A stretch of 40,810 bases of DNA from Methanosphaera stadtmanae (lineage in GTDB: Archaea; Methanobacteriota; Methanobacteria; Methanobacteriales; Methanobacteriaceae). Positions 18,663 through 38,745 of this stretch are shown one piece after another (within the stretch, counting starts at the first letter, position 1; each line of letters starts with the position of its first letter). The notes under the pieces were generated by a model. That model saw nothing but the letters and a program-made list of their open reading frames with translations, was not told the origin of the DNA and ran no database searches. Both the position numbers and the translations under genes were made by a program. The DNA lies in NCBI GenBank assembly GCA_015062825.1, contig SUTR01000014.1, forward strand, positions 12,140-52,949, given 5' to 3'.

Positions 18663-21600
18663 ATGTTAAAATCTAAATATATTAAAGGTTTTTTCTTATT
18701 AACACTTGTACTACTTGCATGCATATCAGTAGTATCAGCAACGGATACAACTGATGATGCAACTGCGGATGTTGTTGAAACATCCAGTATCTCGACACAA
18801 GAAGTTGAGACAAACTCATTTGATGAAGTGCAAACAAGTGATAATACTCAAAAAACTAATAAAAACATAAAAAAGGAAACAAGGTCGTTAATTGAAGTAA
18901 ATGATAGTAATTTTGATTATTATTTTACAAGTAATGGTTTTACTGATAATGTAACTGATGAAGACACTATTTCATTTACAACTAACATATCCCGTTATAA
19001 CAATACTACATATGTTGTAAATAAACCAGTAACCATTTTAGGTAATAATAAAACAATTACATTAAATACGACATCTGGTGCTTATGAAGGTAATGAAACA
19101 GGTTCTTCATTTATATTTGATAAGGGTGCATCAGGATCTACCATATCTGATCTTGCATTTTATAACACACAGGTGATAGTTAGAAACACTACTAATATAG
19201 TTTTTGATAATATTAATCAAACAGTATTCAATCAAAGAATTGGACAAGGAATAGGAACATTCTCAATTAGGGATAATTCCAGTTTTATCACGGTAGAAAA
19301 TTCCAGATTTTCAACTACTAATAACTCTGGAAGTAGTACGTTGGTACTCGCAGCAGCTTATAACTGTACAATTCATAATAACAATATAACTGGTAGTGGA
19401 AATGTAGGTAATTTATTATATTTAACCACATATAATATTGTTGGAATGGCTAATACGGATTTGGAACTCAATTCGTACAATTATATTACCAACAATAGAG
19501 TATCCAGACCGGAGGGAGAATCTGATATAACATGGGGTATTACCTTAACAGGACATGATAATCATATAGAAAATAATATTGTAGATATCTATGGACAGGG
19601 TATAACTACACAATGGTTCTATACTGATCCGGCCACTCCACAAATTGGAAACAATAGTGACCGTTATAAAGGTAATTATTATATCAACAACACAATCTAC
19701 AATAATGCATCATTTAAGCCAACAAACAACAGTACAATAACTTCAAATACTTTGAATGGTGTGACACTTGGACATAACTGTACTTTCATAAAAAATACAG
19801 CGGCAAAAGTTAGTTTAACTGGACAAAACAATCTTTTATGCAATAATACAATAACCGAATTAAATGTAGCTTCTCAGGCAACTAATAATAAGAGATGTGA
19901 GTGTAATAATATTAGTATTATCACTGGAACAGTCGGAAATTGTCCACTTATCTTCTGTAGTAATTGCCCATTCTGTGATGATAATTCTGATGAACTTACC
20001 AGTAATGCAAAAGTGTTAAAAGCTGATGATGATGAAAATGTCTTCATTTTTAATATTACTAATGAAGAATCATTTAATCAATATATGCCGGGAGGACGAA
20101 TAGATGATGGTCTTATTTCAGTAAAAAATGCAACTTATATCTTCTATCTGGAATATTTTCCTAATAACGTCTCTAGTTTAAGGTTGAATAATGTTATCAA
20201 AAATATTCGTTCATCAACGCTTAAGATATATGGTATGAATAATCTAACACTAACTAATGTTGATATTTTTATTGAGATGCAAGCACGAACATTCATTATG
20301 GGTAATTTAACATTAAACTATAACAATGATCATGCTCCTGTTAATTCTTGGAATATGCTTACAGTAGCACCTATTCGTAGTAACACTTTTTTAATAGAAA
20401 ATGTTACTATAAATCATAATAAACGATTAAATTTAGAAACTAACGATTTTCCTGATGAAAATCCAATAAATGTTATTGGTTATTTTGAATGTCCTGTTAA
20501 CCTAAATAATGTTACTGTGAATATGAATACGGATTCAACTCCTGTTAACTGGGATGGTCAATGGAATGTACCCTATACTATACCTCTTAGATATATTCCT
20601 TCTCAAACTCAAAATGCTAATCTAACTGTTTCAAATTCTACATTCAATTTTAATGAAATAGATACTTATTATGAAGATAATGAATATCACTCAGTATATG
20701 GAGTATATTTGGGAAGCAACACGACATTTATTGATAATACTATTAATGTTAATGGAAGTCAGTGTGTTTACGGTATAGTTGCAAGAGGTGGTAATAATAT
20801 TATAAGCAATAATACCATTAACTCAAAATCTACAGGTTATTATGCTTGTGGAATAGATGTTGAAAGTAGTAATATAGCAAATAACATTTTAGAAAACAAT
20901 TATATTAATGTCACGGCAGGTTATGGTGAAAATGCAAACCAAAACCCACATGTAGCATACGGTGCATTGATACTTGATTACTCCTATAAGGGATTTAAAT
21001 ACGTACCGAATGAATATTCAGTGGAAAATGTATCTTACATCAACAACACAATTATAGCAGATGCAGGACAAGCATATGGTGTGGAAATATATGGTGGAAA
21101 CAACCTCAATATATCCGACAATAACATATATTTAACAAGCCGTGTACCAATGGGTATAGGTGCCATAGGAGAAAATGTAACAATATCAGGCAATACAATA
21201 ATAGCAAATGGAACAAATAATGCAACAGAAAGTACAGTAGACTACTTAACATCAAGAACAGTTGGAGTATATACTAGATTCACGAGTGTAGGAGTAAATA
21301 TTACAAATAATAACATAAACATGACAACTGGACGGGGAATATTCATAGACCACTCCAACAATACAGTAAGTTACAATAATACAGTAAATGTAGGAAACTA
21401 TACCTATGCAGTAGAGATAAACAATGGAACAGCAAACAGTATACATGATAATTATTTGGTAACTCCAGATCTTAAAGGTGATGAATCTGTATCTGATTAT
21501 GTCGGAACTGATAACATAATTGAAAACAACTTACCTAAAGTGGTTAAAGAATACTCCGTTGTAGTTGATACAACCGAATTTACACCTGGTCAAAACGCTA

Positions 21601-22178
21601 CAATACAGGCAAGCATAAACTATGGAACCGAAAGTTCACATGAAGTGGCAATCAACATCTCCAAAGGTAAAATATCATTCAAAGTGGATGGTAAAACTCT
21701 TAAAGATACTAAAGGTAAAGTAATCTATGCTAAAGTAACAAACGGGGTTGCAATGATTGAAAACTATCAAATACCAGATACTTGGACTGAAAAAACTACA
21801 ATACAAGCAGTATATTCTGGTTCAAGTGATGTGGCAAAAATGTCAAGTGAAAAAACAGCAATAACTATAACGGCAACTGAACCAACTATAACAACAGAAG
21901 ACGTAACAGCAACGGTTGGTGCTACAGTCACGCTGTCTGCTACAATCAACACCAATGTTACCGTAAATACTGGTAAAGTGGTATTTAAAATAAATGGAAA
22001 AACAGTTAAAGATGCTAACGGCAAAGTAATCTATGCCAAAGTATCAAACAACCAAGTAAACATGGAATACACATTGCCGGAACAATACAAGGCAGGTGCC
22101 TATAACATTACGGCAGTATTTGTTTCATCAAACTACCGGCTTGAAGATTCAAAAACATTAACCATTACGGAAGCTTAA
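18663..22178 (+). CDS. Adhesin-like surface protein: beta-helix plus two Ig-like repeats
   Basis: 1171 residues. The signal peptide is residues 1-27 (KSKYIKGFFLLTLVLLACISVVSA). Asn/Thr-rich right-handed beta-helix sequence follows in two blocks, about 60-410 and 465-975, recognised by recurrent N-x-I/V-x-N-N-T-I rungs. Between them is a Cys cluster (about residues 411-440: CEC, then CPLIFCSNCPFC). The C-terminus holds two similar Ig-like domains (about 985-1080 and 1085-1171), each with a GKV..K(I/V)(N/D)GKT(L/V)KD..GKVIYAKV signature. Many N-x-S/T sites suggest N-glycosylation. No transmembrane segment, sortase-like signal or pseudomurein-binding repeat closes the chain, so attachment is unexplained. 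Such adhesin-like proteins are abundant in gut Methanosphaera and Methanobrevibacter; the ligand is unknown. Confidence 0.88.
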   Translation: MLKSKYIKGFFLLTLVLLACISVVSATDTTDDATADVVETSSISTQEVETNSFDEVQTSDNTQKTNKNIKKETRSLIEVNDSNFDYYFTSNGFTDNVTDEDTISFTTNISRYNNTTYVVNKPVTILGNNKTITLNTTSGAYEGNETGSSFIFDKGASGSTISDLAFYNTQVIVRNTTNIVFDNINQTVFNQRIGQGIGTFSIRDNSSFITVENSRFSTTNNSGSSTLVLAAAYNCTIHNNNITGSGNVGNLLYLTTYNIVGMANTDLELNSYNYITNNRVSRPEGESDITWGITLTGHDNHIENNIVDIYGQGITTQWFYTDPATPQIGNNSDRYKGNYYINNTIYNNASFKPTNNSTITSNTLNGVTLGHNCTFIKNTAAKVSLTGQNNLLCNNTITELNVASQATNNKRCECNNISIITGTVGNCPLIFCSNCPFCDDNSDELTSNAKVLKADDDENVFIFNITNEESFNQYMPGGRIDDGLISVKNATYIFYLEYFPNNVSSLRLNNVIKNIRSSTLKIYGMNNLTLTNVDIFIEMQARTFIMGNLTLNYNNDHAPVNSWNMLTVAPIRSNTFLIENVTINHNKRLNLETNDFPDENPINVIGYFECPVNLNNVTVNMNTDSTPVNWDGQWNVPYTIPLRYIPSQTQNANLTVSNSTFNFNEIDTYYEDNEYHSVYGVYLGSNTTFIDNTINVNGSQCVYGIVARGGNNIISNNTINSKSTGYYACGIDVESSNIANNILENNYINVTAGYGENANQNPHVAYGALILDYSYKGFKYVPNEYSVENVSYINNTIIADAGQAYGVEIYGGNNLNISDNNIYLTSRVPMGIGAIGENVTISGNTIIANGTNNATESTVDYLTSRTVGVYTRFTSVGVNITNNNINMTTGRGIFIDHSNNTVSYNNTVNVGNYTYAVEINNGTANSIHDNYLVTPDLKGDESVSDYVGTDNIIENNLPKVVKEYSVVVDTTEFTPGQNATIQASINYGTESSHEVAINISKGKISFKVDGKTLKDTKGKVIYAKVTNGVAMIENYQIPDTWTEKTTIQAVYSGSSDVAKMSSEKTAITITATEPTITTEDVTATVGATVTLSATINTNVTVNTGKVVFKINGKTVKDANGKVIYAKVSNNQVNMEYTLPEQYKAGAYNITAVFVSSNYRLEDSKTLTITEA
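21547..22175 (+). repeat. Two diverged copies of an Ig-like domain repeat
   Basis: The DNA around GGTAAAGTAATCTATGC (21713-21729) recurs as GGCAAAGTAATCTATGC (22020-22036), about 307 bases downstream. The flanking protein sequence aligns over about 90 residues. The copies differ at many positions elsewhere, so the duplication is old with a conserved core. Confidence 0.8.
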
Positions 22179-22643: not shown

Positions 22644-24836
22644 TTAGTTGTATGAGACTAGTTCTGTTTCTTTCTTGGGTTTTACTTTTTTCATTGCTTT
22701 GTCAAATTCTGACATGTATACTTCCACTGAATCAAGATCTTCTCTGAGTGTGAGCATTACTGCTTCTCGGCAGACTGCTTCTATGTCTGCTCCCACGTAT
22801 CCTTCAGTTTTTCTTGCAAGTTCTTCTAAGTCTACATCGTCGGCAAGTGGCATGTCTTTTGTATGGACTTTGAAGATTTCTATTCTTGATTTTTCATCTG
22901 GAAGACCAACTTCTACATGTCTGTCAAATCGTCCTGGTCTTAGGAGTGCTGGATCAATTATGTCTGGTCTGTTTGTTGCTGCTATTACTGAGATGTCATG
23001 TAGTTCTTCCATTCCATCCATTTCGGTTAGTAATTGATTTACTACTCTTTGGGTTACTCCGCTGTCTCCTGCTGTTGCTCCACGGGTGGATGCTATTGAA
23101 TCTATTTCATCAAAGAATATTACTGTTGGTGCAGTTTGTCTTGCTTTTCTGAAGATTTCTCTTACACCTTTTTCAGAGTCTCCTACCCATTTGGATAGTA
23201 ATTCTGGTCCTTTTACTGATATGAAGTTCGCATCACTTTCATTTGCTACTGCTTTTGCAAGTAATGTTTTTCCAGTTCCTGGAGACCCTGTTAGCAATAC
23301 TCCTTTTGGTGGGGTGATGCCGAATTGTTTGAATTTTTCAGGTGTTTTTAGTGGCCATTCTACTGCTTCTTTTAGTTCTTGTTTGGCGTCTTCTAATCCT
23401 CCTACATCATCCCATGTAATGTCTGGTATTTGTACTAGTACTTCTCTTAGTGCTGATGGCTGTATTTCTTTAAGTGCATCTTTGAAGTCTTGTTTGTCAA
23501 GTACCATTTTTTTAAGTACTTCTTGTGGTACTTCTTTGTCTGTCTGTATTTCTGGCAGTATTCTTCTTAGTACTCTCATTGCAGCTTCTTTACAGAGTGC
23601 TTCCAGGTCTGCTCCTACAAATCCATGTGTAACTTCTGTTAGTTCGTCAAGGTTTACATTTTCTGTTAATGGCATGTTTCTTGTATGTACTTCTAGGATT
23701 TCTTTTCTTTCTTCTTTGTCTGGTACGCCTATTTCTATTTCTCTGTCGAATCGTCCTGGTCTTCTTAGTGCTTCATCTATTGCATCTGGTCTGTTTGTTG
23801 CACCTATTACAACTACTTCTCCTCTGCTTTTTAGTCCGTCCATTAATGTTAAGAGTTGTGCTACGGTTCTTCTTTCTACGTCTCCGGTTACTTCTGCTCT
23901 TTTTGGTGCTATTGCATCTAGTTCATCTATGAATATGATTGATGGGCTGTTTTCTTCTGCTTCTTCAAACAGTTCTCTGAGTTGTTCTTCAGATCCTCCA
24001 ACGTATTTGCTCATGATTTCCGGACCGTTTATTAGTATGAAGTGTGCGTTTGTTTCATTTGCAACGGCTTTTGCAAGTAATGTTTTTCCTGTTCCTGGTG
24101 GACCGTGTAATAATACTCCTTTTGGTGCTGATATTCCTAATTGTTTGAAGAGTTCTGGTCTTTTAAGTGGTATTTCTACCATTTCTCTGATTTTTTTAAC
24201 TTCGTTTTCTAATCCGCCTATGTCTTCATATGATACGTCTATGAGGTTTTCTACTCCTTCGAATTTGCTTGGATCTACTGGTTTTGTTTCCATTTCTATT
24301 TGGGTATCTTCTGTTATTTTTACTGGGCCTAATGGTTTTGTACTAACTACTGCGAGTTTTATTTCGCCTATTGATGTTCGGTTTGCCATCATTTGGTTTA
24401 TGATATCATCCAACATCATATTTGGAACTTGTGGTTGTGGTCTTCTGATTCCCGTCATTATGATGTCGCCTTTGTTGACTATTCTGTTTAGGAATACGCC
24501 ATTAATGTTTCCTTGTATTGCTATTTCCTGGTCTACTGGTGCTAGTTTAACTTTTTTAGCTTCTTTGATTTGTGCTGGTCTGATGGTTACTTCTTCTCCT
24601 ATGGATGTTCCTGCATTTTTTCTGAGATAACTGTCTATTCTTAGTATTCCTAGACTTACGTCTGATTGTGATGCTATGACTGTTGCTGTTGTTAGTTTGT
24701 TTCCTTCAATTTCTATTACATCACCGTCTTTGAGGTTTAAGTCTTCCATACATTTTGGGTCGATTCTTGCAACTGATCGGCCGATGTCTGCTTGTGAAAA
24801 TGCTTCTGCTACTTTTAGTTTTAATTCATTTTCCAT
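22644..24836 (-). CDS. cdc48: CDC48/VAT family AAA+ ATPase
   Basis: Double-ring AAA+ unfoldase that extracts and unfolds proteins, in archaea likely feeding the proteasome. An N-terminal substrate-binding region (residues 1-185) begins with the double-psi barrel ([18 protein letters not shown]). D1 has Walker A GPPGTGKT (245-252), Walker B IIFIDELD (300-307) and [14 protein letters not shown]2 has Walker A GSPGTGKT (517-524, Ser replacing the usual first Pro), Walker B VIFFDEID (572-579) and [14 protein letters not shown]. The 730 residues are normal. The C-terminus ELVSYN lacks an obvious HbYX proteasome-docking end. A GAGGAATAG ribosome site precedes the ATG. Two matching palindromes lie 49-73 and 128-152 bases upstream. 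Confidence 0.96.
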
Positions 24837-25185
24837 ATTCTATTCCTCCTTTATTCTTTATATAATTTATTATAGTGAGAAATCTTTTAGTATATTTTGG
24901 TTACTAAAAAATTTTATTAATGTAATTTATTTTATTTACTTTTTGTAATTATAAGTTTATACCTTTTAGTATATAAAGGTTACTAAAATATAATTTTTCT
25001 ATAATAATTCTATTTCTAAATTCAAGGTATATTGATATTTAAAAAAAGGTAAATTTTCATTAAATATTATTATTAATTTTAATAAAAATTCATAAGTACT
25101 TATTTGATTAAAATACGGTCTAAATTCATTTTTAATTAAATTCACTATTTTTAAAAAATTTTTCTAAATAAAAAAAGGTTGGGGG
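24837..25185 (-). promoter_or_regulatory. cdc48 promoter region with twin palindromic operators
   Basis: Two 25-base elements, 24885-24909 and 24964-24988, each consist of TTTTAGTA, a 9-base spacer ending in GGT, and TACTAAAA. Arms are perfect and identical in both copies; only three spacer bases differ. Their starts are 79 bp apart. The distal copy contains TTTATATA on the minus strand, a good archaeal TATA box. A regulator bound there would block the basal machinery, and the proximal copy would lie in the early transcribed region. The rest of the spacer is plain AT-rich sequence. Confidence 0.6.
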
Positions 25186-26529
25186 TTATCTTATTTGTGC
25201 ACCTGTTGCTTTGATATAGTTTTCAACTTTTATATTATCCTTCTTATTAAATGTCTTATAATTGTATGTTAAACTTTTTTGATTATCTTTAATTTGTGAA
25301 CCAGTATATACATCAATCAATTCAACACTAACAATTTCATCAATCTTGCTTATGATATCCTTTAAGATGTTTTCATCAGCAGTTTTTGGAGTAAGTATGG
25401 ATATATCATATGAATACAATTTGATGTTTTCTGTCTTCCATTTGTATAATTCATCATCGCTTAATATTCTAATATTGGATATCTTCAACTTCACTTCGTT
25501 TTTGTTATCTTTAATTAGCGTAACATTGTTTGAAGTTACTGATTTGACAATACCTACATGTATGTTGTTGGAATATTGGTGTTTAAGTCCTACTTCATTG
25601 CCAATATTTTCCTTAAGGTATCTAACATCTTGTGTGAGAATACTTATTGCCTTATCAGACCTTCCAAGTGCATCCTCAAATTCATCAAGATGTTTTGCTG
25701 AATTTTTCATATTATTTATGAATTCATCTACTTTTCCCTCTTCAATATAGTTACATAACTTTATGCTTTCATCAATCAGAGTTCTACGTGTTTGAACATT
25801 TATCTCATTTGATTCCTGTATTGAATAGTATAGGTATGGATTTTGGGATACTATACGACTTATCATATCAAGCATTAAATTATAGACAGGACTTGCAAAT
25901 TCCCTTGATCTTTTCACACTTACATCAAGTTTCTTTATGGTTGATGCAATGCTAATATATGAAAAATGAGTCAATCCCTGTACTACACTCATAATTTTGT
26001 CATGTTCTTCAGGAGTACTGATTACAAGCTTTGCATTATGCTCGTTGAGATATTTTTCAATTTTTTCAACATATTGGTTGTATCTGTTTTTTAATGGGGT
26101 AATTATTATTACCTGTCCATCTATTGAAGGTACTCTTGGTCCGAACATTGGATGGCATGGTAATATTTCACAGTTTTCTGGTGCATATTTTTCCAGTGCC
26201 TCTGCGGGTCTTCTTTTAACAGAGGTCACATCCATCAACAGACTCCCTTGGGGGGCATGTGGGGCAACTTCCTTTATTGTATCTACCATATATTCTATCG
26301 GAACGGCAAATATGATTATTTTGGAATATTGTATTGCTTCAATATTGTTATCTGAGTAAGATGCCCCTATTTCTTTGGCAATCTGTTCTCCAGAGGATTT
26401 GTTACGACTTGTGATTTTAACACTTATGTTGTTGTTTATTAAATCTTCGGCAATCCACCGGCCCAATCCTCTTGTTCCTCCAATAATTGTCACATCACTT
26501 TTTTCATCACAAGTCATTATCCAATCCAT
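25186..26529 (-). CDS. tyrA: Prephenate dehydrogenase with C-terminal FDX-ACB-like domain
   Basis: Oxidative decarboxylation of prephenate on the tyrosine pathway. The NAD(P)-binding loop GGTRGLG is at residues 17-23, followed by KIIIFAVPIEY and the family motif CHPMFGP (125-131), then the helical dimerisation domain (QGLTHFSYISIA, 184-195, to about 300). A beta-rich linker (about 322-370) leads to residues 372-447: YSYDISILTP, VELIDVYTGSQI...NQKSLTYNYKTF and a final TGAQIR. This matches the order and key residues of the FDX-ACB domain that ends phenylalanyl-tRNA synthetase beta. The 447 residues are long compared with bacterial TyrA (about 280-370). The start at 26529 is tentative; an in-frame ATG at 26517 is equally possible. 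The next upstream gene ends 41 bases away. Confidence 0.9.
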   Translation of the reverse strand: MDWIMTCDEKSDVTIIGGTRGLGRWIAEDLINNNISVKITSRNKSSGEQIAKEIGASYSDNNIEAIQYSKIIIFAVPIEYMVDTIKEVAPHAPQGSLLMDVTSVKRRPAEALEKYAPENCEILPCHPMFGPRVPSIDGQVIIITPLKNRYNQYVEKIEKYLNEHNAKLVISTPEEHDKIMSVVQGLTHFSYISIASTIKKLDVSVKRSREFASPVYNLMLDMISRIVSQNPYLYYSIQESNEINVQTRRTLIDESIKLCNYIEEGKVDEFINNMKNSAKHLDEFEDALGRSDKAISILTQDVRYLKENIGNEVGLKHQYSNNIHVGIVKSVTSNNVTLIKDNKNEVKLKISNIRILSDDELYKWKTENIKLYSYDISILTPKTADENILKDIISKIDEIVSVELIDVYTGSQIKDNQKSLTYNYKTFNKKDNIKVENYIKATGAQIR

Positions 26530-26570
26530 CCTATTTATTTTTTCTTGTTATTATTTATAATTGTAGTTTC

Positions 26571-26879
26571 TTATATTTCTATCCTTGGAAGTGGACGTTT
26601 TGAATAAATTTCATTTATTATATCCAGTAAATCTATTATTCTTTTATCTTCACATATTTTTTTTATCGCAAGGAATTCTGTGGAATTTTTTATAAATATT
26701 CCTCTTCTTTTAAGTGTTATTCCATTGGATGTCGGATTCAATTCTACAAATATTGTTTGATGATTGTTATGTTCTGGTGTTTTAACGATGTATACTCCAT
26801 CTATATTTGTTGCAATTTTTTCCCATGGTTCTGCTTGTTCTATTGATTTTATAATAATGTTTTTCTTATTGTTGTTCAT
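26571..26879 (-). CDS. Conserved-looking small protein, unknown
   Basis: 102 residues, mixed alpha/beta by eye: KNIIIKSIEQAEPWEKIATNI, a strand-rich middle (DGVYIVKT, QTIFVELNP, GITLKRRGIFI) and a helical end (FLAIKKICEDKRIIDLLDIINEIY). No signal peptide, membrane segment or known motif. AGGTGA lies about 13 bases upstream of the ATG, a rather long spacing. It is 41 bases upstream of tyrA on the same strand, so co-transcription is likely. I cannot assign a function. Confidence 0.7.
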   Translation of the reverse strand: MNNNKKNIIIKSIEQAEPWEKIATNIDGVYIVKTPEHNNHQTIFVELNPTSNGITLKRRGIFIKNSTEFLAIKKICEDKRIIDLLDIINEIYSKRPLPRIEI

Positions 26880-27034
26880 AATTTTAATTGATTCACCTCA
26901 TATTTTTGTAATACTATTTTTATTAATAATCATATAAAAGTATTACTATTATCACTAAAACTTATTACTTAAATATAAAATAAATCAAGACAATAATATA
27001 TATTATATCTTAAACAAAAGAAGGAAAATATAAT

Positions 27035-28090
27035 ATGCAAATAAAAAACCAGGATAAAAAAATAGGATTGATAGAAGTAATACCAGAAAACCTTGATGAT
27101 TTATGGCATTTATCTCATATTGTAGAAATAGGCGACTACATATCAACACTCACTACCAGAAGAATACAGGACAATAATAGTGGAAAAACAAGGGCAGATA
27201 GAGGAGTCAAGAAAACATTTTATCTTGGAGTAAGGGTGGAAAAAATTGCATTCCATAAATACACAGGGATTCTACGTTTTACGGGAATCATAGAGTCAGG
27301 ACCTGAAGACTTGGTGCCACTTGGATCACATCATACAATAAATATGCAGATAAATAACAGTCTGAGGATACAAAAGACATGGAATAAATGGACTCTTGAT
27401 AGATTAACCCAGGCAATAGAAGCTTCAAAGAGAAACGAGGATATAATAATAGCAATTGAAGACAATAATACTGAACTTGGATTAATCAAACAGTATGGGA
27501 TAGAATATGTGGGACCTATAATAGGTGACATATCCGGTAAAAGAAACATACAAAAGGATAGGAAGGAAAAAATAAACCAATACTATGAAGACATTACTCA
27601 AAGTATTTTACAGCACGGAACATTCAACAAACTAATAATAATTGGGCCTGGATTTACAAAGAATGGATATTACAACTACTTGGAAGATAAATATCCTGAA
27701 ATGGCCAAAAAGGCAACATTGGAAAATACCGGTTCTGGAGGACATGCAGGTATTCAGGAAGTACTAAAAAATGGACTTGTTGAAAATCTATCCAAGGATG
27801 CAAAAATAGCAAAGGAAATTGCAACCGTAAATAAATTATTAGAAGAAATAGGCAAGTCATCAAATCTGGTTACATATGGATTTAAACAGGTATCAAATGC
27901 TACAAATATGGCGGCAGTTGAAAAATTAATAGTTGTAGACCAGGAGGTACGACAACAAAAGACACAACAAATAATGAATAACGTGGAGAATATGGGTGGT
28001 ACTGTTGAAATAATAAGCAGTCAACATGATGGTGGAAAACAATTGGAGGCTCTAGGTTCAATAGCGGCATTTTTAAGATATCCCATATAG
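27035..28090 (+). CDS. pelA: mRNA surveillance protein Pelota (Dom34 homologue)
   Basis: eRF1-related factor that enters stalled ribosomes and, with aEF1A and ABCE1, promotes their dissociation. The N-terminal Sm-like domain has the typical EVIPENLDDLWHLSHIVEIGDYISTLTTRRIQ start. The middle domain has VKKTFYLGVRVEKIAFHKYTGILRFTG. The C-terminal domain holds NTGSGGHAGIQEVLKNG and ends ALGSIAAFLRYPI. The eRF1 GGQ motif is absent, as expected. The 351 residues are standard. An AAGAAGGA ribosome site and a likely TATA element (TTAAATATA at 26969-26977) lie upstream. Confidence 0.96.
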   Translation: MQIKNQDKKIGLIEVIPENLDDLWHLSHIVEIGDYISTLTTRRIQDNNSGKTRADRGVKKTFYLGVRVEKIAFHKYTGILRFTGIIESGPEDLVPLGSHHTINMQINNSLRIQKTWNKWTLDRLTQAIEASKRNEDIIIAIEDNNTELGLIKQYGIEYVGPIIGDISGKRNIQKDRKEKINQYYEDITQSILQHGTFNKLIIIGPGFTKNGYYNYLEDKYPEMAKKATLENTGSGGHAGIQEVLKNGLVENLSKDAKIAKEIATVNKLLEEIGKSSNLVTYGFKQVSNATNMAAVEKLIVVDQEVRQQKTQQIMNNVENMGGTVEIISSQHDGGKQLEALGSIAAFLRYPI

Positions 28091-32257: not shown

Positions 32258-33307
32258 TCATGTATTGCTGTATTTAATTATATTATTCAACTGTTCCTTG
32301 GCAATGCCTTCTTTGAGAACCTTTCGTGAAAGTTCAACACCTTCCCTAAGACTTTTAACTTTATCGGTAACATATAAAATGCTTGCTGAATTCATAAGGC
32401 ATAAATCCATACGTGCTTTCTGTTGTCTAGTTTCAATCCGGTTGTCTAAAATATCCTTTATTATTTGTACATGTTCTTCAGGGCTGTCTGGAGCAGTAAT
32501 ATCATCTTCTGTGGAATATTCAAGACCAAAATCTTCAGGTGAAATGTATCGTACATTGATGTTGCCATCTTCTATGAATGCTACCTTTGTTTTTCCAACA
32601 TTGGATATTTCATCCATTGCAGGATTGCCCTTGCTATCAAATCCATGAACAATCATGCCACGTTTAACACCTAAATTAAGACTTACCTTTGCAATGGTCT
32701 CAACCAATTCAGGATCATAGATACCAGTCATTCTGGCAGTAACATGGCTTGGACATGTTATTGGTCCGATTAAATTAAAAATTGTCCTGGTTTTCAATTC
32801 TTTTCTAAGCATCATCACATTTTTAGTTGCAACATGATATTTAGGTGCAAATATGAATGCGAAGTTACAGTGTTCTAATGATTCAATCACCTGATTTGGT
32901 GTTAAGTTGATATTAACTCCTAAAGCTTCAAGTGCATCTGCTCCACCAAATTTGCTGCTTACACTTCTATTTCCATGTTTTGATATTTTAGCACCTGCAG
33001 CACTTGCAATTATGGATGATACAGTACTTACATTAAATGTTTTTAAGGTATCACCACCGGTACCGCAACTTTCAACAAGATATTCATCACTTTCATAGTC
33101 AATTTGCAATGCATGATCCTTCATGCATTGTGTAAGTGCTGTAATCTCATCAATGCTTTCACCTTTCATACGAAGTGCAATTAAAAAACTTGCAACGATA
33201 CTGTCAGGATAACTGCCACTTATCAAATCATTCATACATTCATATGCTTCATCATATGTCAAATCATATCCTTCATCTATAATTTTATCAAGTACTTCTT
33301 CTATCAT
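32258..33307 (-). CDS. trpD: Anthranilate phosphoribosyltransferase
   Basis: Second step of tryptophan synthesis: anthranilate plus PRPP gives phosphoribosyl-anthranilate. The phosphate-binding loop ESCGTGGDTLKTFNVST is at about residues 79-95. KHGNRSVSSKFGGADALEALG and FAPKYHVATKNVMMLRKEL cover the anthranilate and PRPP sites, then RTIFNLIGPITCP. The 349 residues are standard. The ATG directly follows the trpA stop codon, and its AAGGAGGATAG ribosome site lies inside trpA, so translation is coupled. It is the last gene of the operon. Confidence 0.96.
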   Translation of the reverse strand: MIEEVLDKIIDEGYDLTYDEAYECMNDLISGSYPDSIVASFLIALRMKGESIDEITALTQCMKDHALQIDYESDEYLVESCGTGGDTLKTFNVSTVSSIIASAAGAKISKHGNRSVSSKFGGADALEALGVNINLTPNQVIESLEHCNFAFIFAPKYHVATKNVMMLRKELKTRTIFNLIGPITCPSHVTARMTGIYDPELVETIAKVSLNLGVKRGMIVHGFDSKGNPAMDEISNVGKTKVAFIEDGNINVRYISPEDFGLEYSTEDDITAPDSPEEHVQIIKDILDNRIETRQQKARMDLCLMNSASILYVTDKVKSLREGVELSRKVLKEGIAKEQLNNIIKYSNT

Positions 33308-34123
33308 TTAACTATCCTCCTTGGTTGCTTCTTTCATCATACCTATATATTCTCCAATCTTTTCAAACATTAAATCCTCATTTTCATAGTTTTCTTCAAT
33401 AATCTTAATCAATGCACTTCCCACAATTGCTCCATCACTACCTGCACTTAATACTTTTTTAACATGCTCAGGTTTTGATATTCCGAATCCTACACATAAT
33501 GGAATGTCCGTATTTTCTCGTATTCTTTTTATTAGTTCTGTTGTATCGTTTTCTACATTATCACGTACACCTGTTGTACCCATAACAGATGCTATATAAA
33601 TAAATCCACTTACATATTCACAAATATTCTTAACTCTTTCAGTATTGGTTGCTTGAGAGATTATAAAAATCTGTTCTATATCATATTTATTGGATGCAGC
33701 CATCACATCATCTGCTTCTTCAGGTGGAAGATCTGCTATTAACACAGCATTTACTCCAACAGCATTCAATCTTTTATAAAATGCATCAATGCCATATTTA
33801 TATACTAAATTATAATATAATAACAAACCGAATGGCTTATCAGTATATTCTCTTAATTGTTCTAGGTATCTGAAACATTTTTCAACAGTCATACCATTAT
33901 CAAATGCTCTGATATCTGCATTTTGTACACTCACACCATCTGCAACAGGATCAGAAAATGGAAATCCTATCTCCAATGCATCAGCACCTGAATCAACCAA
34001 CTTTTTTGCAATCTCTAGTGATGTATCATAACTTGGATCTCCTGCGACAATAAATGGTATGAACACTCCCTCATTATTCTCATGGGCTTTGGTAAAAATT
34101 TCATTATAGGTTAATTTATTCAT
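33308..34123 (-). CDS. trpA: Tryptophan synthase alpha subunit
   Basis: Cleaves indole-3-glycerol phosphate and passes indole to TrpB. The TIM barrel carries [19 protein letters not shown], the catalytic Glu in [15 protein letters not shown] (about residues 50-64) and the catalytic Asp in LIADLPPEE. Later come [14 protein letters not shown] and the phosphate-binding [11 protein letters not shown] plus [10 protein letters not shown]. The length of 271 residues is typical. Its ATG overlaps the trpB stop by four bases (ATGA), with AGGGGTGAAG as ribosome site inside trpB. Confidence 0.96.
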
Positions 34124-35301
34124 AACTTCACCCCTAATTCTTCTGCAACAATAAACATATCCTTATCTCCACGTCCAGATAAGTTTACAACTATGGTTTT
34201 TCCTTTATTCTCTTTCATTTTAGCATATTTAACAGCATATGCTATAGCATGTGAACTTTCAAGTGCTGGAATAATACCTTCTGTCTGACATAATAATTTA
34301 AATGCGTCTAATGCTTCATCATTATTTATTGTAACATATTTTGCACGATTTATGCTATGCAAATATGCATGTTCTGGTCCAACGCCAGGATAATCCAATC
34401 CTGCTGAAACACTGCTTGTATGATTAATCTGTCCATCCCTATCCTGTAATATGATGGATAATGAGCCATGTAATATTCCATCACTTCCCTTGTTTATTGT
34501 AGCTCCATGAGCATCAGTATCTAATCCTTCACCACCTGCTTCTACACCGATAAGGTCTACTTCACTATCATCTACAAATCCACTGAATATGCCCATTGCA
34601 TTACTGCCACCACCAACACATGCAATTACAGTATCAGGTAATCTTCCTTCAAGTTCCAGTATTTGTCTTTTACATTCCTTTCCAATTACGCTTTGGAAGA
34701 ACTTAACCATGGTAGGAAATGGATGTGGTCCCATGGTTGTACCAATCAAATAATGTGTAGTTTCTAGATTGGGAATCCAATATCTGAATGCTTCATTAAT
34801 TGAATCTTTCAATGTCTTTGAGCCTTGTTCAACGGGAATAACTTCTGCACCGGATAGTTCCATTCTAAATACATTTAGTTTCTGACGTTCAACATCCTTT
34901 GCACCCATGAATACTTTAACATCTAGGCCTAATTTGGCACCAATAACTGCCGTTGCAATTCCATGTTGTCCTGCACCAGTTTCTGCTATAAGCTGACTTT
35001 TGCCCATATACTTTGCAAGAAGTCCCTGTCCAATAGTATTGTTAATCTTATGTGCACCGGTATGCAGCATATCTTCACGTTTAAGATAAATTTTACATCC
35101 TAACTCTTTTGATAGATTTTCTGCATAATATAATCCTGTAGGACGTCCTGCAAATTCCCTTAAATAAAATTCAAGTTCTTCAATAAATTTTTCATCATCT
35201 TTAAACTTATAAAATGCTTCTTCCAATTCTTCTATTGCTGGAATTAATAATTCTGGTATGTAAATACCACCATATTTCCCAAATTTTCCATTATACTTCA
35301 T
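34120..35301 (-). CDS. trpB: Tryptophan synthase beta subunit
   Basis: PLP enzyme condensing indole with serine. The PLP lysine is in HTGAHKINN (about residue 85). [12 protein letters not shown] and the phosphate-binding [12 protein letters not shown] are clear, and the C-terminal NLSGRGDKD ends the fold. The N-terminal [13 protein letters not shown], along with overall layout and the adjacent trpA, marks it as the standard TrpB1 type rather than TrpB2. It has 393 residues. AGGTG precedes the ATG. Confidence 0.96.
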
Positions 35302-35309
35302 ATTAACAC

Positions 35310-35984
35310 CTATATTTCATCAATTAACTTCATTATTCTCTTTACTTCCTTAATATTTTTTATCCCTGGAGAATCCTCTACTCCACTATTCAAATCAATT
35401 CTGTCAAAATAATGTAACTTATCCATTATGCTTTCCAAATATTCATAATTAAGGCCACCGGCTAGTGTTACTTGGGTCTTGCCGTCAATGTTTTTTATAA
35501 TATTTCTTGCCCTTATTGCCTCATCTATAGGGATATGGGTATTGGTACCGCCAGTTAAACCATCTTTCATATAATCAAGCAATATGTTGTCACAGTATAA
35601 TGCATGATTTTCTAATTCATGTTGTTTTTCTTTTCCATTTTTATCCTTTAGTCCTATTGCCTTTGTAATTTTCATTCTTTCAAAATTATGGTATCTGTTA
35701 ATCCAATGAAGATATTTGATGTGAAATGGGGTGAGACAATGTAACTGTATGTTGAATATTCTAGTACGATTGCTTTTTAATATAACATCATAGGGGTTAC
35801 TTGGCTCTAAAACTAATGTTCCCATACGTTTTGATGAAAGTTGATTTTCGAAGGAAGTTATCTTATCCATTTCCACGAATCTTTTAGATCTTTTGATGTT
35901 TATGAATCCAAGATATTCTATTTCCAGTTTCTCTAATTTTCTAATTTGTTCGGCTTTTGTAATTCCACATACCTTTACCTTCAT
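35310..35984 (-). CDS. trpF: Phosphoribosylanthranilate isomerase
   Basis: Amadori rearrangement of phosphoribosyl-anthranilate. The catalytic Cys is in KVCGITK near the N-terminus and the catalytic Asp in [16 protein letters not shown] at the end; [11 protein letters not shown] and the GVEDSPG loop bind phosphate. I start at the ATG at 35984 (224 residues, MKVKVCG) because GGAGGT lies six bases upstream. An in-frame ATG at 35999 sits just before that site and would make the ribosome site part of codons 2-3. It lies between trpC and trpB with short spacers. Confidence 0.93.
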
Positions 35985-36006
35985 ATTTATACCTCCCATA
36001 TTTTGA

Positions 36007-36798
36007 TTAAATTAAAACATCATGTAACTTTTGTATATATGATTTGATTGATGGTGGATTGTTTTCTCTAAGAATGCTAGTTCCTATTAGCAATGCATCT
36101 GCATTGTAGCTTTTAAGAAGCCTTGCATCATTCAGATTATTCACTCCACTTTCTGAAATCATATAGTTTGGCACATATTCTCTAAGATGTTTTGTTGTCT
36201 CCAGGTTTATTGTCAAATCCTTTAAATTTCTATTATTTACTCCTATTATCTGTGGATTTAAGTCAACTACATTTTCCAAATCATCCCTGCTGTGGCATTC
36301 AACTATTGCATCTATTCCTAAGTCAGTGGTAATATTCAAATATTTTTCTATATCTGGGCAAATGCCCTCTATTAAAAGAATACAACTTGCATTATTTGCA
36401 GCTGCTTCATATATCATATATTCATCTATCACAAAATCCTTTCTTAAAAGAGCCTTGTTTGTATTTTCATTTGCTAGTTGAAAATTCCTAAAATTACTCT
36501 TAAAATATGATTCTTCTGTTATAATACTAATCATATCTACAGGACTTTCATCATAAATTTTTATTACTTCATTAACATCTAAATCTGATATATTGCCCTG
36601 GGATGGACTTGCTGGTTTATATTCACATATGAGTTTTGTTGTTTTATCCTTCTTTAATACACTTTGAAATCTGAATTTTTCATCCATACTATCTCTATAA
36701 TCAAATGCTTCCCTTTTAATCTGTGATAAATTCTTCTTTTGTTTTACTTTTTCAAGCATATTTTTCTTGTTTTTTATTATTTGCTCTATTACATTCAT
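36007..36798 (-). CDS. trpC: Indole-3-glycerol-phosphate synthase
   Basis: Ring-closing decarboxylase. LICEYKPASPSQG (catalytic Glu and Lys of the ExKxxSPS motif), the lysine in ALLRKDFVIDEYMIYEA, IIGVNNRNLKDLTINLE and the phosphate-binding ISESGVNNLNDARLLKS with ALLIGTSIL are all visible. I choose the ATG at 36798 (263 residues) because the GATGTGAT ribosome site is four bases away; the GTG at 36807 lies inside that site. The trpG stop is ten bases upstream of the start. Confidence 0.95.
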   Translation of the reverse strand: MNVIEQIIKNKKNMLEKVKQKKNLSQIKREAFDYRDSMDEKFRFQSVLKKDKTTKLICEYKPASPSQGNISDLDVNEVIKIYDESPVDMISIITEESYFKSNFRNFQLANENTNKALLRKDFVIDEYMIYEAAANNASCILLIEGICPDIEKYLNITTDLGIDAIVECHSRDDLENVVDLNPQIIGVNNRNLKDLTINLETTKHLREYVPNYMISESGVNNLNDARLLKSYNADALLIGTSILRENNPPSIKSYIQKLHDVLI

Positions 36799-36808
36799 GA
36801 TTATCACA

Positions 36809-37375
36809 TCATATTTCTAGGAAGTTTTCAATAATCTTATCACCATAATTGCTGCCTATTGATTCTGGATGAAATTGAATACCATATGTTGGGTTGTGCT
36901 TGTCCTCTATGGACATGATTATTCCATCATGTGTATAAGATGTGACTTTTATGTTATCAGGAATGTTGTGTTTATCACATATTAATGAATGGTATCTTAC
37001 AGCTTCAAATTCCTGTGGAATGTCCCTAAAAAGTATTGAGTCTTCATGATAGATAACATCTTTTTTTCCATGCACTGGAATATTATTTATTATTTTTCCT
37101 CCGGAATTATAGTAGATTCCCTGATGGCCAAGACAGACACCCAATATTGGTGTTGATTTCATATATTTTAATATGTCTGTGCATATACCAAAATCCCTAT
37201 TGTTTTTTGGATGTCCCGGTCCTGGTGAGAGTATTATATGACTGGCATTTAATCTTTCTATTTTATCAATTGTAATTTTATCATTTCTTATAACCTTAAT
37301 ATCCTGGGAATATTTTCCTACAAGTTGGTATAGATTATAGGTAAATGAATCATAATTATCTATAATCAATATCAT
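36809..37375 (-). CDS. trpG: Anthranilate synthase glutamine amidotransferase subunit
   Basis: Class I glutaminase supplying ammonia to TrpE. The oxyanion region LSPGPGHP is followed by the nucleophile Cys in LGVCLGHQG and the catalytic His-Glu in IQFHPESIGS. NYDSFTYNLYQ marks the N-terminus of the TrpG/PabA family. The 188 residues are normal. The ATG overlaps the trpE stop by four bases, giving translational coupling of the two synthase subunits. Confidence 0.96.
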   Translation of the reverse strand: MILIIDNYDSFTYNLYQLVGKYSQDIKVIRNDKITIDKIERLNASHIILSPGPGHPKNNRDFGICTDILKYMKSTPILGVCLGHQGIYYNSGGKIINNIPVHGKKDVIYHEDSILFRDIPQEFEAVRYHSLICDKHNIPDNIKVTSYTHDGIIMSIEDKHNPTYGIQFHPESIGSNYGDKIIENFLEI

Positions 37376-38745
37376 ATTGCTTCACATCCTGATTTAATTA
37401 ATGCCTCGACTAATGCCTGTCTTTTTCTACTGCATTCATTATATTCTGATTCAGGTTTGGAGTCATATACAATTCCTGCTCCTGCCTGTATTTCTGCCCT
37501 GTCATCATATGTTGTTATTGTTCTTATTGTAATTGCAAAATCTGCATTTCCATTTAAAGAAAAGTATCCTACTGCTCCTCCATAGGGGCCTCGGGCATAT
37601 TTTTCATATTTATTGATTATTTCCATTGCTCTAATTTTTGGAGCACCACTTAATGTTCCTGCAGGAAATAATGACATGAATGCGTCTATTGCATCAAGTT
37701 CCTCTCTGATTTCTCCAGTTACATGTGAGACAATATGCTGTACATGGGAGAATTTTTTTATATCATAAAATTCTTTGAGCTCTACACTTCCTATTTTGCT
37801 TATTTTATTAATGTCATTTCTTGCAAGATCAACCAACATTAAATGTTCGGCCAGTTCCTTTTGATCATTCAATAATGATTCTTCAAGTCTAGTGTCTTCC
37901 TCTCTTGTTTTTCCTCTTGGTCGTGTTCCTGCAATGGGGTATGTTTCCACTATATTATTTTCCAGACGCATAAGCATCTCTGGACTTGATCCTATTATTT
38001 CTCTTTGTCCAAGTTTGATATGATACATGTATGGTGATGGATTTATTTTTCGAAGATATTCATATAGGGGTAATTTGCTTCCCTTAAGAACAATATTCAA
38101 TGGATTTGAAATTACTGCCTGGAATATTTCGCCGTCTGTAATTAATTTTTTTGTATTGGCTACGGCATTCACATATTCCTCCTGTTGGAAGTCCTCTTCT
38201 ATGATTTCATATTCCAATATTCCGTTGGTGTGTTGTTCATTATTTATTTTTTCTATCAAATTACTTCTATCTTCATTTAATGTTGTATATTCACAGGTAT
38301 TGTCTATATTGTTATAGACTATGCAATCCAGGAAAAGTCCAAATTCAAAGTCGGGATATATGCTATCATGTGTTGGAATATCTTCAATGTATTTGATTGA
38401 TTCATATGAAACATATCCCAGTAATCCTCCTCTAAATCCTTCCAGTTTATAGTCATAATCTATTAGTTCTTTTAAGTCCAGCAGAGGATTTTCTGATTCA
38501 TATTCTATTGTTTCTCTATTTAGGATGATGCTTACTTTGTTGTTGTGTGCTTTTATTTTTGCAACTGGATTGAATCCTATTATGGAATATCTTGCCAGTC
38601 CATTGTCTGTTTCCATAGATTCAAGTAAGAATGCATCTTTATAATTGTAATATAAGTTTTTAAATAATTCTACTGGTTTGTTAACGTTTATTTTTCTTGT
38701 TTTAGGTTTTTTGATTAATTTTTTTAGTTTGCCAAAAACATTCAC
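37372..38745 (-). CDS. trpE: Anthranilate synthase component I
   Basis: Converts chorismate and ammonia to anthranilate; first enzyme of the pathway. LLESMETDNGLARYSIIG near the N-terminus is the LLES-type feedback-inhibition region. The chorismate-binding core includes FQAVISNPL, PSPYMYHIKLG, GSSPEMLMRL, PIAGTRPRG, ELAEHLMLVDLARND, FPAGTLSGAPKIRAMEII and GAVGYF. The 457 residues are standard. The start is a GTG at 38745 with only a weak ribosome site. A better site (AGGTTGAT) precedes an out-of-frame ATG at 38755 that opens a 17-codon overlapping frame. It is first in the trpEGCFBAD operon. Confidence 0.96.
   Translation of the reverse strand: MNVFGKLKKLIKKPKTRKINVNKPVELFKNLYYNYKDAFLLESMETDNGLARYSIIGFNPVAKIKAHNNKVSIILNRETIEYESENPLLDLKELIDYDYKLEGFRGGLLGYVSYESIKYIEDIPTHDSIYPDFEFGLFLDCIVYNNIDNTCEYTTLNEDRSNLIEKINNEQHTNGILEYEIIEEDFQQEEYVNAVANTKKLITDGEIFQAVISNPLNIVLKGSKLPLYEYLRKINPSPYMYHIKLGQREIIGSSPEMLMRLENNIVETYPIAGTRPRGKTREEDTRLEESLLNDQKELAEHLMLVDLARNDINKISKIGSVELKEFYDIKKFSHVQHIVSHVTGEIREELDAIDAFMSLFPAGTLSGAPKIRAMEIINKYEKYARGPYGGAVGYFSLNGNADFAITIRTITTYDDRAEIQAGAGIVYDSKPESEYNECSRKRQALVEALIKSGCEAI

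Follow-up and report, generated by a model that had tools for sequence, protein, structure and literature searches.

A putative G34-recognition pocket in the C-terminal tail of archaeal prephenate dehydrogenase suggests control of TyrA by tRNA, or by tyrosine in the same site

The prephenate dehydrogenase gene of Methanosphaera stadtmanae raises the question of what a domain resembling the anticodon-binding domain of phenylalanyl-tRNA synthetase (PheRS) does at the end of an enzyme of tyrosine synthesis. The gene lies on the minus strand of the window, the whole stretch of 40,810 nucleotides that was analysed, and was divided as follows:

25186..26529, minus strand: tyrA, encoding a C-terminally extended prephenate dehydrogenase (447 aa and a stop codon), from the NF006408 (PRK08655) equivalog match (E=2.9e-189, residues 9-447)
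25675..26529, minus strand: catalytic part, residues 1-285 (PDH_N plus PDH_C), from Pfam and residue counts
25462..25608, minus strand: predicted small beta barrel (Sm/SH3-like), residues 308-356, from AlphaFold, Foldseek likeness to the MscS barrel plus ferredoxin region, and conservation
25189..25434, minus strand: FDX-ACB (ferredoxin-fold anticodon-binding) domain, residues 366-447, from PF03147, PheRS beta profile matches and fold

The protein was identified as an archaeal REG-type TyrA by the full-length equivalog match, tail included, and by the residues H126, H188 and R225, whose catalytic role is presumed from the known TyrA family and which were kept in 162 of 162 collected TyrA proteins (residue counts). 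Pfam divides it into PDH_N (26-169), PDH_C (172-275) and FDX-ACB PF03147 (374-431). The initial annotation had placed a FDX-ACB domain at 25189-25416, which corresponds exactly to residues 372-447, and the motifs that it quoted were found where it had put them (YSYDIS at 372, IDVYTG at 405, KSLTYN at 418 and GAQIR at 443). The box stands as an outline of the ferredoxin fold; the extension itself begins earlier, with the small barrel at about 308-356 lying ahead of it. Taken together, sequence and model indicate that the tail is a two-domain module, a Sm/SH3-like barrel with near-invariant residues H317, Y319, S320, H324, G326 and N352 (conservation counts) followed by a FDX-ACB domain whose homologue in bacterial PheRS beta binds the anticodon.

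That the domain fused to TyrA is of the FDX-ACB family, as had been proposed, was borne out by both family and fold searches. The whole TyrA matched PF03147 at 31.3 bits (E=2.9e-7), barely exceeding the curated cut-off of 31.1, and the tail alone at 33.3 bits (E=6.5e-8); this was the top Pfam family for the tail, followed by the NCBIfam family TIGR00472 (pheT_bact, E=3.2e-7). TyrA orthologs of Hydrothermarchaeota scored up to 48 bits, and a profile of 25 TyrA tails matched PheRS beta chains in the PDB with E-values down to 6.2e-5. A weak likeness of the single tail to Alba (phmmer against the PDB, E 0.21) was superseded by this profile search. The ACT family, named in the initial annotation as a competing assignment, was absent from the profile matches of the window TyrA and of 46 aligned members, and the predicted topology was FDX-ACB-like.

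The AlphaFold2 model, for which only the window sequence and fetched relatives were used as input, gave a pLDDT of 92.6 for the tail (residues 295-447), with the order helix, barrel of about five strands, helix and then a beta-alpha-beta-beta-alpha-beta ferredoxin fold at 372-447. Foldseek placed a PheRS beta chain first (E 9.1e-5), the TM values being modest because the query also includes the barrel. MscS channels were found at nearly equal E-values; these also combine a Sm-like barrel with a ferredoxin-like domain, and the likeness was taken as one of fold, no MscS sequence match being present in the Pfam or profile searches. The full-length model (pLDDT 89.5) matched prephenate dehydrogenases.

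The tail has been noted before. Song et al. (2005, BMC Biol 3:13; PMC1173090) named it TyrA-REG (COG4937), described it as restricted to some archaea and presumed it to be regulatory, so that the fusion itself is no new find. In the literature searched, which covered few subscription journals, COG4937 was mentioned only in that paper, and a 2024 survey of archaeal fusions included prephenate dehydrogenase only in a PheA fusion. The same search, mostly of open-access papers, yielded none in which FDX-ACB or another anticodon domain was connected with prephenate dehydrogenase. Later COG releases presumably rename COG4937 as a ferredoxin-fold anticodon-binding domain, and the fold assignment may already be public.

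The expectation that the fusion would be conserved in methanogens was followed up by a survey, in which the tail profile matched 142 of 152 Methanobacteriota genomes and PF03147 itself 119 of 152 at E 0.01. Twelve Methanobacteriota genomes were checked further, and nine of these were without a detectable TyrA; in G112 TyrA ended before the barrel and in G109 and G111 after it, the three proteins being L180, L181 and L192. As these genomes are drafts, the truncations call for caution. PF03147 was matched in 19 of 23 genomes of the phylum to which the Hydrothermarchaeota loci belong, over the cut-off in 16, and a gene with this domain was present in M. jannaschii, included as a control. The fusion is near-universal among the TyrA proteins of Methanobacteriota and Hydrothermarchaeota. 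In the window's genome TyrA was the only PF03147 match over the cut-off, because this genome has a PheT of the archaeal kind, which contains B1, B3/4, B5 and CLM domains but lacks FDX-ACB.

The residues by which PheRS recognises its tRNA offer a way to ask what the domain might bind. In human mitochondrial PheRS, G34 is held by Asp364, Phe366, Ser375 and Arg414, of which Phe366 corresponds to Tyr beta731 in Thermus thermophilus; the Asp364Gly change leaves the enzyme inactive, and A35 and A36 contribute little (PMC7540514). A conserved Phe likewise stacks on G34 in the PheRS of Mycobacterium tuberculosis (PMC12447630). Equivalents of all four were predicted in the TyrA tail from alignments and conservation, with contacts taken from PMC7540514:

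25312..25314, minus strand: D406, equivalent of Asp364 (H-bonds G34 N1/N2)
25306..25308, minus strand: Y408, equivalent of Phe366 and of T. thermophilus beta Tyr731 (stacks on G34)
25273..25275, minus strand: S419, equivalent of Ser375 (H-bond to G34 O6)
25189..25191, minus strand: R447, the C-terminal residue, equivalent of Arg414 (H-bonds G34 N7/O6)

Mapping to the human and Thermus numbering was done via profile coordinates and not residue by residue; 1b70 chain B aligned at an offset of 665, so that Tyr731 falls on the Y column, and the alignment of 3cmq covered 315-410. Among 92 non-redundant TyrA proteins (below 90% identity), D406, Y408, S419 and R447 ranked 11, 1, 4 and 3 in conservation of the 82 domain positions, and the chance of all four falling within the top 11 is about 2e-4 if positions are taken as exchangeable. 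D406 is replaced by Glu in about one in ten relatives. When six bacterial PheT sequences were aligned with four TyrA tails only six columns were invariant (R, D, D, G, S and R), three of which belong to the tetrad, with the Tyr column nearly invariant. By alignment, then, the four residues with which PheRS recognises G34 (Asp, Tyr/Phe, Ser and Arg) are all retained in the TyrA tail, which is a new observation.

The domain does differ from that of PheRS. The helix before the last strand is shortened, as had been noted from the sequence: 11-12 residues around the RTLxDxE motif, a segment typical of PheRS without strictly defining it, are missing from all TyrA tails aligned, and the PF03147 match stops before or at this segment. 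For the G34 pocket, in which the four residues remain, the suggestion that the tRNA surface had been repurposed finds no support, even though this helical block of PheRS is gone.

The identity of the tetrad residues points to guanine 34 and hence to a tRNA as the candidate ligand. Both tRNA-Tyr (GUA) and tRNA-Phe (GAA) have G34. With slightly less than even confidence, it is proposed that the tail binds a G34-containing tRNA, most plausibly tRNA-Tyr or tRNA-Phe, as a feedback signal. TyrA would grip the tRNA through the retained PheRS pocket, and binding would adjust tyrosine synthesis to how much aromatic tRNA is present or how far it is charged, the tail acting as an ACT domain does where a free amino acid tunes other pathway enzymes. 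Counting against this reading are the replacement of D406 by Glu in some relatives and the charge of the FDX-ACB domain, which in Methanobacteriota averages -2.6 and so is not basic. Bacterial PheT FDX-ACB domains are also not basic, ranging from -6 to +4, and domain charge was for this reason set aside as uninformative on RNA binding.

In the main rival, judged somewhat less probable than tRNA binding, L-tyrosine (or phenylalanine) would be an allosteric ligand that has taken over the G34 pocket, with the tail working like a C-terminal ACT domain. A tetrad of D, Y, S and R could equally hold an amino acid, with D406 binding the amino group, R447 the carboxylate and Y408 stacking on the ring. 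The presumption of Song et al. (2005) that the archaeal tail is regulatory would agree with this, as would the inhibition of the Methanococcus maripaludis prephenate dehydrogenase by tyrosine cited in the same paper, which fits plain tyrosine feedback (PMC1173090). The third fold match of the full-length model was the TyrA of Bacillus anthracis in complex with L-tyrosine (5uyy); a related entry, 7mqv, is described as having the ACT domain removed. Against an amino acid ligand, the four residues kept are the guanine-contacting ones of PheRS, Y alternating with F as it does there, and a rebuilt pocket should have changed some of them; the lack of any ACT match also speaks against it.

The surroundings of the gene were inspected as well. 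The order pelota, small gene, tyrA, cdc48 (window 22644-28090) recurs at further Methanobacteriota loci (L032, L033, L066 and L072). The small gene, directly upstream of tyrA (26571-26879, minus strand), encodes 102 residues with no Pfam match and is present in 11 of 80 tyrA loci, mostly of Methanosphaera. Tryptophan biosynthesis genes (TrpA, TrpB, TrpE-like and neighbours; 32258-38745, minus strand) lie about 6 kb from tyrA, and a 1171-residue Asn/Thr-rich product whose start resembles a signal sequence, probably a surface protein of the adhesin type, is encoded at 18663-22178 on the plus strand. The position of tyrA between pelota and cdc48 in several Methanobacteriota, and the reading of a guanine by the homologous PheRS pocket (PMC7540514), would also be in keeping with a tail that has a different RNA or a free guanine nucleotide as its ligand, or that places TyrA near the translation machinery, in each case without metabolic feedback. 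This is judged improbable, the least probable of the readings weighed here: the pelota/cdc48 order is absent from the Hydrothermarchaeota loci inspected, which have other genes nearby, and nothing indicates a particular other RNA.

Further evidence comes from TyrA proteins in which the pocket has been lost naturally. A protein was counted as site-lost when at least two of Y, S and R were gone; in the sample of 162 TyrA proteins, 125 were intact, 32 lost and five intermediate, and thinning at 85% identity left 67 intact and 24 lost. In the thinned set S419 and R447 fell from 100% to 4% and Y408 from 99% to 8%, which follows by construction as these residues define the split. Positions not used for the split also changed: H317 went from 100% to 21%, usually to Asp, H324 from 100% to 50% and N352 from 100% to 58%, while G441, G443, W364, K365 and R290-D292 stayed at 90% or above in the site-lost proteins. 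On a tree of the catalytic part only, the site state needs nine changes, six of them on well-supported branches. The site has been lost at least six times, mostly in second TyrA copies, with the catalytic residues and usually the fold kept.

The barrel position that changes most was assigned as follows:

25579..25581, minus strand: H317, a barrel residue that most tetrad-lost proteins have exchanged, usually for Asp, from residue counts and tree

Of six independent pairs, about 3.8 showed H317 changing in step with the site and none showed the opposite (p 0.125, six pairs being too few for significance), and much of its association with the tetrad stems from one big site-lost clade. The net charge of the barrel averaged +2.7 where the site is intact and -1.0 where it is lost (p 2e-7, uncorrected for kinship).

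Site-lost proteins were mostly found as second copies beside an intact TyrA (for example L006/L169 and L025/L161), but in some genomes the site-lost form was the sole TyrA seen (L172-L175). Many Methanobrevibacter-group genomes hold such second copies, about 50-54% identical to the window TyrA (L144-L151, L153, L155-L157, L160-L171), in which the catalytic residues are intact, the G34-type pocket is lost and the loop often carries a short deletion where the Tyr would be. It should also be noted that the window's own genome contains a stray TyrA tail fragment of about 138 aa with no in-frame catalytic part (G000:C96:13762-14172; L143, L154), downstream of a transposase-like ORF and with most of the tetrad gone, which looks like a decayed copy.

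These losses bear on the proposed functions in different ways. Copies without the site beside intact ones resemble feedback-insensitive and feedback-sensitive isozymes, as a tyrosine site would allow; the switch of barrel charge from positive to negative upon site loss is not predicted by tyrosine binding. If instead the tail were only a structural or dimerisation scaffold, its conserved residues would be inherited structure, and the persistence of the tail and its fold positions where the tetrad is gone does suggest that it probably does more than hold one ligand. A purely structural role is nevertheless judged unlikely, since Y, S and R, which cluster in the pocket of PheRS, have disappeared jointly and more than once from tails whose fold positions persist, and the three genomes with TyrA cut before or after the barrel keep the catalytic part, so that a scaffold would not be essential. 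Recurrent joint loss with the catalytic residues kept is more easily explained by a regulatory ligand site that can be dispensed with than by a scaffold. Because the site residues are lost together, several times, while the catalytic residues stay, the tetrad would be an optional ligand site and hence a regulatory one. What the analysis shows is the homology, the predicted fold, the presence of all four G34 residues and the recurrent loss of their site from enzymes with intact catalytic residues. From the residues and their history we infer that the tetrad binds a ligand, that this ligand is a tRNA and that its binding regulates catalysis; more broadly, the alignments suggest that tRNA, or tyrosine in the same pocket, may control TyrA.

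If the tail does read tRNA, an amino acid pathway enzyme would be under the direct control of its own tRNA, bypassing both transcription and translation, and the domain that was labelled 'REG' two decades ago would gain a function. As enzymes of all three kinds, intact, site-lost and domain-lost, exist in nature, sometimes two in one genome, ordinary enzymology can address the question.

Among known systems, TyrA-REG has the same architecture, with a presumably regulatory extension at the C-terminus of an archaeal prephenate dehydrogenase; the part of that account considered here also describes the TyrA-ACT fusion and makes no mention of FDX-ACB, an anticodon site or site loss (PMC1173090). 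The B8 (FDX-ACB) domain of bacterial PheRS beta and the domain that ends mitochondrial PheRS are homologous to the tail in sequence and fold and have the same G34-contacting Asp, Tyr/Phe, Ser and Arg, whereas the TyrA domain is without the 11-12 or so residues at RTLxDxE, is attached to a dehydrogenase with a barrel ahead of it and takes no part in aminoacylation. TyrA-ACT, as in Bacillus, also places a C-terminal regulatory domain of ferredoxin-like fold on TyrA, but ACT is another family. In HisRS-like regulators such as HisZ and GCN2, parts of a tRNA synthetase are re-used to control amino acid synthesis; these are HisRS-like modules, whereas in TyrA just the anticodon-binding domain is present, fused to the biosynthetic enzyme.
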